From NCBI GenBank assembly GCA_020853755.1, contig JADYYG010000031.1:1-64000 (forward strand): a stretch of DNA of 64,000 nt. Direction: 5' to 3'. The notes beneath the pieces are model-generated. The model did no database searches. It was not told where the DNA came from and saw only the letters and a list, made by a program, of their open reading frames with translations. Source of the DNA: Dehalococcoidia bacterium. Lineage in GTDB: Bacteria > Chloroflexota > Dehalococcoidia > Tepidiformales > Tepidiformaceae. Below, in pieces: positions 42,207-42,427 of this stretch (position 1 is its first letter; every line of letters starts with the position of its first letter). The translations under genes and the position numbers were made by a program.

Positions 42207-42235
42207 TTGACACTTAGGCGGCATGGACAAACGAT
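42207..42235 (+). promoter_or_regulatory. Promoter of the riboswitch-glycosyltransferase transcript
   Basis: A perfect -35 TTGACA (42207-42212) followed after 17 nt by AACGAT, a weak -10. Transcription would start about 42242, at the 5' edge of the riboswitch. Confidence 0.5.
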
Positions 42236-42405
42236 GCTCGCAAGCGACTCGAAACGCACGCCTAGTCCGCGCCACGGCGTGGAACGGGGGAACCAGTTCT
42301 CGGGGCGAGTCCGCAAGGGCATCCTTCCCAGGAAGGATTGCGACGGCGGAACGGCCATCTCCGGTCGTAGCCCGGCAGCTAACCTCGGAGGCGTTGGAAG
42401 AACCT
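42236..42405 (+). promoter_or_regulatory. c-di-AMP riboswitch (ydaO-yuaA class)
   Basis: The 265-nt leader holds the class hallmarks in order: AACGGGGGAACCA, then GGGGCGAGTCC (consensus GGGGUGAAUCC), a variable arm ATCCTTC/GAAGGAT, and CCCGGCAGCTAACCTCGGAGGCGTT, the highly conserved 3' pseudo-symmetric half. These are the segments that bind two c-di-AMP molecules in known members. It ends about 25 nt before the glycosyltransferase ATG. The ribosome region contains AGAGGATCTCT, which can close on itself, so control could be at translation; no clear terminator hairpin with a T-run was seen. Confidence 0.9.
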
Positions 42406-42427
42406 CGAATAGAGGATCTCTTCAGGT

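Follow-up and report, generated by a model that had tools for sequence, protein, structure and literature searches.

A diverged c-di-AMP riboswitch upstream of a membrane glycosyltransferase gene in Dehalococcoidia, with a hairpin predicted to bury the Shine-Dalgarno sequence

In the 64,000-nucleotide stretch of Dehalococcoidia bacterium DNA analysed here (the window), a variant form of the c-di-AMP riboswitch precedes a stand-alone gene for a GT2-type membrane glycosyltransferase (Table 1). What makes the RNA a variant is its signature, a weak pseudoknot, the Shine-Dalgarno hairpin and the gene that it precedes. Under the mechanism we propose, a sigma-70-type promoter would produce a leader made up almost entirely of the c-di-AMP aptamer plus a brief expression platform, whose hairpin would bury the Shine-Dalgarno GAGG immediately ahead of the GT2 start codon. 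Without ligand, the weak pseudoknot of the aptamer would lose, the hairpin would form and translation would be low; with c-di-AMP, the pseudoknot would be held, the lower stem of the hairpin would be lost and the ribosome site would open. c-di-AMP from the genome's CdaA would in this way control envelope or extracellular glycan synthesis at translation. We give this proposal as a whole (promoter, aptamer, Shine-Dalgarno hairpin and translational ON control of the GT2 gene by c-di-AMP) an even chance of being right. Within it, we infer the binding of c-di-AMP by the aptamer and a glycan as the product of the target enzyme; control at translation rather than transcription is most likely, and ON polarity, given translational control, is slightly favoured.

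Table 1. Features of the riboswitch leader and its target gene (positions in the window)
Feature	Position	Strand	Basis or remark
Sigma-70-type promoter, TTGACA-17 nt-AACGAT	42207..42235	+	Consensus matching across leaders
c-di-AMP (ydaO-yuaA) riboswitch aptamer, RF00379	42249..42408	+	Covariance match, 62 bits, full length
Extended P4 hairpin (UCCGC...GCGGA plus inner stem)	42310..42350	+	Alignment; longer than in the genome's other four copies
Stem-loop CGGC/GUCG	42352..42367	+	Its loop UCUCC (42358-42362) supplies the pseudoknot's 5' strand
GGAAGA	42396..42401	+	Shared by the pseudoknot (3' strand) and the platform hairpin (5' arm)
Expression-platform hairpin, GAAGA-A-CCUC-GAAUA-GAGG-AUC-UCUUC	42397..42423	+	MFE -11.8; beside the start codon
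Putative Shine-Dalgarno GAGG	42412..42415	+	Lies in the hairpin's 3' arm; spacing to the ATG 12 nt
GT2-type membrane glycosyltransferase, 583 aa	42428..44179	+	Pfam Glyco_trans_2_3, motifs, predicted fold

A ydaO-yuaA riboswitch had originally been predicted in this leader, and the Rfam covariance check bears this out. When the whole window was searched with 4227 Rfam families (cmscan), RF00379 was the sole match at gathering level, with 62 bits against a cut-off of 38 (24 bits above it) and an E-value of 5.8e-12, and the match spans the full length of the model (1-134). Conserved blocks are readable in the aptamer: GCCUAG at 42260-42265, GGGGCGAG at 42302-42309 and CCCGGCAGCUAACCUCG at 42371-42387. 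By score, pathway context and conserved blocks, we assign the RNA to the c-di-AMP riboswitch family. The span first put forward, 42236-42405, was right in approximate place and off by 13 nt at its 5' end and 3 nt at its 3' end; it begins where the -10 box (42230-42235) ends. The Shine-Dalgarno hairpin, the promoter and the divergence of the aptamer subclass go beyond what the original prediction contained.

The promoter, which is conserved, emerged from a comparison of leaders, as at least 9 of 12 promoter consensus matches were present in 11 of 22 leaders (the window's included) versus 9 of 3000 random windows. A simple promoter scan missed this element, whose -10 box matches the consensus at only 3 of 6 positions. 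The transcript is predicted to start near 42242, giving a leader of roughly 185 nt that therefore consists of aptamer and platform and little else; the aptamer ends 20 nt before the ATG of the glycosyltransferase gene (42428).

The pairing of riboswitch and gene is conserved. A protein search of the genome collection gave 26 loci, all in records titled Dehalococcoidia, Chloroflexi or related MAGs, and RF00379 (46-69 bits) was directly upstream of the gene in all 25 that had enough upstream DNA; one locus, L027, with only 31 nt upstream, was left out of this count. In the search of relatives, which included the window's own genome, the riboswitch lay upstream on the same strand in 17 of 17 genomes carrying the gene at 43% identity or more. 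The phylum search yielded one gene with an upstream riboswitch (G325, 47% identity) and one without (G305, 43% identity), and in other Chloroflexota classes none of the 14 homologues that were scanned (identity about 31-40%) had an upstream riboswitch. Because the riboswitch is absent from these homologues, its association with the glycosyltransferase seems to have arisen within Dehalococcoidia. Two more distant Dehalococcoidia (L083 and L087) have a near-canonical aptamer (78-83 bits) upstream of the same gene, whose homology begins some 340 nt downstream of the aptamer, whereas in the window's family the aptamer is diverged and abuts the start codon. A ZMP/ZTP riboswitch was also seen in the flank of one relative (L018, 1362-1447, minus strand).

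The downstream gene was said at the outset to encode a membrane glycosyltransferase, in agreement with Pfam, where the 583-aa ORF matches Glyco_trans_2_3 with 34.3 bits against a curated cut-off of 27. The protein combines transmembrane helices with a GT2 domain that bears DxD and ED motifs; two hydrophobic helices lie at the N-terminal side and several at the C-terminal side. Its invariant motifs are CDAD (228-231), PEDW (321-324) and QxxRHAW (367-373); for the QxxRW of processive synthases, it carries an invariant Q367..R370-H-A-W373, a QxxRxxW variant. Foldseek placed its AlphaFold model (mean pLDDT 73.7) nearest to synthases of hyaluronan, cellulose and chitin, with 11-14% identity; a sequence search of the protein against the PDB gave no match. 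An NCBIfam match to NodC lay far under its cut-off, and this identity was rejected. Our best guess is that the target is a processive glycan synthase. Given the likeness of its predicted fold to these three synthase types, the making of an extracellular or envelope polymer is a reasonable prediction for the output linked to c-di-AMP. Genes around the glycosyltransferase are not conserved among relatives, which rules out an operon effect; the enzyme would therefore act alone or with unlinked partners.

Based on the alignment, the riboswitch copies linked to the glycosyltransferase form a diverged subclass, altered in the joints that adjoin the ligand pockets. They differ from canonical copies in having GCC[U/A]A, a lengthened P4 that contains an inner stem, C67-G83 for G67-C83 (a flip of the closing pair of the CGGC/GUCG stem-loop from G-C to C-G) and [U/C]84-A-G86 for GAA. 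The 3' signature was present in 28 of 28 glycosyltransferase copies, and 88 canonical-type copies carry other letters there. Ligand-contact positions were numbered by matching to a T. pseudethanolicus sequence, in which all but one of the residues listed as contacts match their stated identity; the mapping is good, though provisional. The contact residues of both ligand pockets came from a review table (PMC7288161). By this provisional numbering, the window copy is altered at G8, the G67-C83 pair and U43, and most other contacts are kept (GCC, A9, GG23-24, GG41-42, A45, G68-G69, CC88-89, A93 and GC107-108); in the subclass, the changes at or beside the pockets are G8 to U or A, G84 to U or C, and A86 to G.

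Two alternatives concern the aptamer itself. A chance or decayed match without a regulatory role might be suspected since 62 bits is below the scores of the other four of the five RF00379 copies in this genome (84-91 bits), but the E-value, together with the retention of the match before the same gene in all relatives whose sequence reaches far enough, refutes a chance match and leaves this explanation with a very small probability. The subclass might instead have changed its ligand and sense another cyclic dinucleotide, or nothing, as it departs from canonical copies at 8, 67-83, 84 and 86, all in the pockets or next to them. However, the majority of contacts are retained, a canonical copy in this genome with a high score (L003) likewise has U8, the near-canonical copies of the distant Dehalococcoidia stand upstream of the same gene, and the position numbering is provisional. 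Moreover, the UAG-type signature is not unique to the glycosyltransferase gene, for at least 11 copies precede other genes in the family, which makes an altered ligand unlikely; we rate it as quite improbable. We give as little credence to the idea that C67-G83 and [U/C]84-A-G86 confer an altered preference, for another cyclic dinucleotide or through a single working pocket, and thereby control glycan synthesis.

A DAC-domain cyclase gene, proposed as something to look for in the genome, was found there: the one DAC protein is CdaA-like (271 aa, 143.6 bits), its gene adjoins a CdaR-like gene, and there is one PgpH-type 7TM-HD protein. By these annotations, the parts for c-di-AMP signalling are present. 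Directly after another riboswitch copy of the genome (L009, 2389-2560) comes GGAGG-AAGCAC-loop-GUGC-CUCC-UC-AUG, in which a hairpin reaches up to the ATG of a possible small ORF. Many canonical c-di-AMP riboswitches in the Dehalococcoidia family precede a 57-62 aa zinc-ribbon protein (L001, 59 aa; L041-L048, L051 and L057) with the pattern MLR..WWR...RRCPEC..YD.RDRYCP.CH..TPEWR.G, for which there was no Pfam match above cut-off. A second recurrent target is an almost invariant 72-aa zinc-ribbon protein (MPALQEAPPKSCPKC...QRRRQPSHGKLRL) at L003 (72 aa), L056, L058, L062, L064 and L066, and its near identity across genera suggests strong constraint. At L039, L050, L067 and L116, riboswitches lie upstream of proteins that resemble trehalose-6-phosphate synthase, judged by sequence only, which would be a fitting osmolyte target for c-di-AMP. 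UAG-type riboswitches at L154, L155, L150 and L187 precede small PRC-barrel-like or DUF2171-like proteins (weak Pfam match, E 0.068).

After P1, the tail of the window's leader reads GGAAGA-A-CCUC-GAAUA-GAGG-AUC-UCUUC-AGGU-AUG. Folding each sequence separately revealed an equivalent of its hairpin in 23 of the 24 sequences examined, with a mean folding z of -1.8, a value that is not a formal probability because the sequences are related; the hairpin is poor (z +1.3) in L158, a relative of the glycosyltransferase type. The lower stem shows a compensatory change from A-U to U-A (GAAGA/UCUUC versus GAAGU/ACUUC), the upper stem varies in a compensatory manner between CCUC/GAGG, CCC/GGG and CUC/GAG, and a GGAACCC/GGGUUCC variant occurs in a clade that starts with UUG. 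Per-sequence folding was used here, and a covariation count on a MAFFT alignment of the platform was set aside, as the 3' arms were misregistered. A purine-rich GAGG or AGGG occupies the Shine-Dalgarno place in most relatives, and a start codon follows within a few nucleotides 3' of the hairpin in nearly all of them. For GAGG in the free hairpin, the mean unpaired probability was 0.00. In the glycosyltransferase relatives L023, L025, L030 and L038, no ATG, GTG or TTG was seen near the hairpin, and the frame seemingly starts at a CUG at the hairpin's end.

Crystal structures of the c-di-AMP riboswitch contain a pseudoknot (PMC5393176). In the canonical type, base pairing joins the last stem's loop to the tail, at -11.4 kcal/mol for matched versus -8.4 kcal/mol for swapped tails, with none of 2000 permutations as good. 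This pairing is weaker in the window's riboswitch type, where 23 of 2000 permutations were as good; it averages -7.5 in the UAG type as a whole and lies between about -4 and -6 in most glycosyltransferase copies among those listed, where it contains a bulge or mismatch. Given the bulge or mismatch, the pseudoknot of the subclass could be dispensable. In the glycosyltransferase type, the pseudoknot uses the same GGAAG as the 5' arm of the hairpin (GGAAG/GGAGG), so that the two cannot form together, and it is this overlap from which ON polarity is predicted. When the lower stem was blocked in folding, the unpaired probability of GAGG rose from 0.00 to 0.32 in the window sequence and was almost unchanged in many relatives. 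Since the upper stem, 4 bp covering GAGG, is predicted to stay partly paired, opening of the Shine-Dalgarno sequence may be incomplete. The GAGG-ATG spacing in the window is long, which also counts against the model.

The c-di-AMP riboswitches that we found described in the literature are OFF switches, including one translational case, C. glutamicum nlpC (PMC9960051), and these precedents favour a reading in which the same riboswitch and target form a translational OFF switch like the one proposed there. The ligand would fix the aptamer's ACCUCG in P2, the platform copy of ACCUCG would then pair with GAGG, and without ligand an alternative pairing would free the Shine-Dalgarno sequence. AACCUCG does occur twice, in the aptamer (42381-42387) and in the platform (42401-42407), and competition for the CGGGGG strand is conceivable. 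However, the repeat is not kept, the platform arm in many relatives being CCC, CUC, CGUC or GGAACCC and the aptamer arm ACC[CU]CG, and the overlap that is conserved is that of hairpin and pseudoknot, which argues for ON; an OFF switch is possible, though we doubt it. Transcription attenuation, with the hairpin acting as a terminator or via Rho, would follow the best-characterised c-di-AMP riboswitch, B. subtilis ydaO/kimA, which works by termination (PMC9960051). Yet no U-run follows the hairpin, which is therefore not an intrinsic terminator, and the terminator scan found neither an intrinsic terminator after the aptamer nor a terminator-like site on the + strand, so that the hairpin as a terminator was rejected. 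With the start codon abutting the hairpin as well, attenuation is improbable, and translational ON control is the reading that we prefer.

A literature search, conducted without the main ydaO papers and the Block 2010/Nelson 2013 target lists, returned no account of a GT2 synthase-like gene under a c-di-AMP riboswitch; likewise without the main ydaO papers, it returned nothing on c-di-AMP riboswitches in Chloroflexota. As the pairing is fixed across many genera, glycan synthesis would rank among the lineage's most stable outputs of c-di-AMP. Should the polarity be as predicted, c-di-AMP would switch the gene on here through plain competition between the aptamer pseudoknot and the hairpin over the Shine-Dalgarno sequence, a design that could readily be tested in a laboratory host and serve as a biosensor part.

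Compared with RF00379 riboswitches, the window copy matches at full length above the cut-off and keeps the conserved blocks, the pseudoknot strands and, by the provisional numbering, most ligand-contact positions, but it scores 62 bits versus 75-112 bits for most other Chloroflexota copies and departs from the canonical form in C67-G83, U/C84, G86, U or A at position 8, a longer P4 and a weak pseudoknot. The target enzyme shares Glyco_trans_2_3, the DxD and ED motifs and flanking transmembrane helices with GT2 membrane synthases (hyaluronan synthase, BcsA cellulose synthase and chitin synthase; Foldseek E 9e-10 to 1e-5), and differs from them in its 11-14% identity, TM-scores of about 0.3-0.5 and QxxRHAW in place of QxxRW. 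Unlike the B. subtilis ydaO/kimA type, the window's leader has no intrinsic terminator after the aptamer. The C. glutamicum nlpC riboswitch (PMC9960051) is similar in lacking a terminator, in its proposed translational control and in its envelope-related target; however, that target is a peptidase and the window's a GT2 synthase-like enzyme, and in the window the hairpin that buries the Shine-Dalgarno sequence shares an arm with the pseudoknot, which predicts an ON switch.
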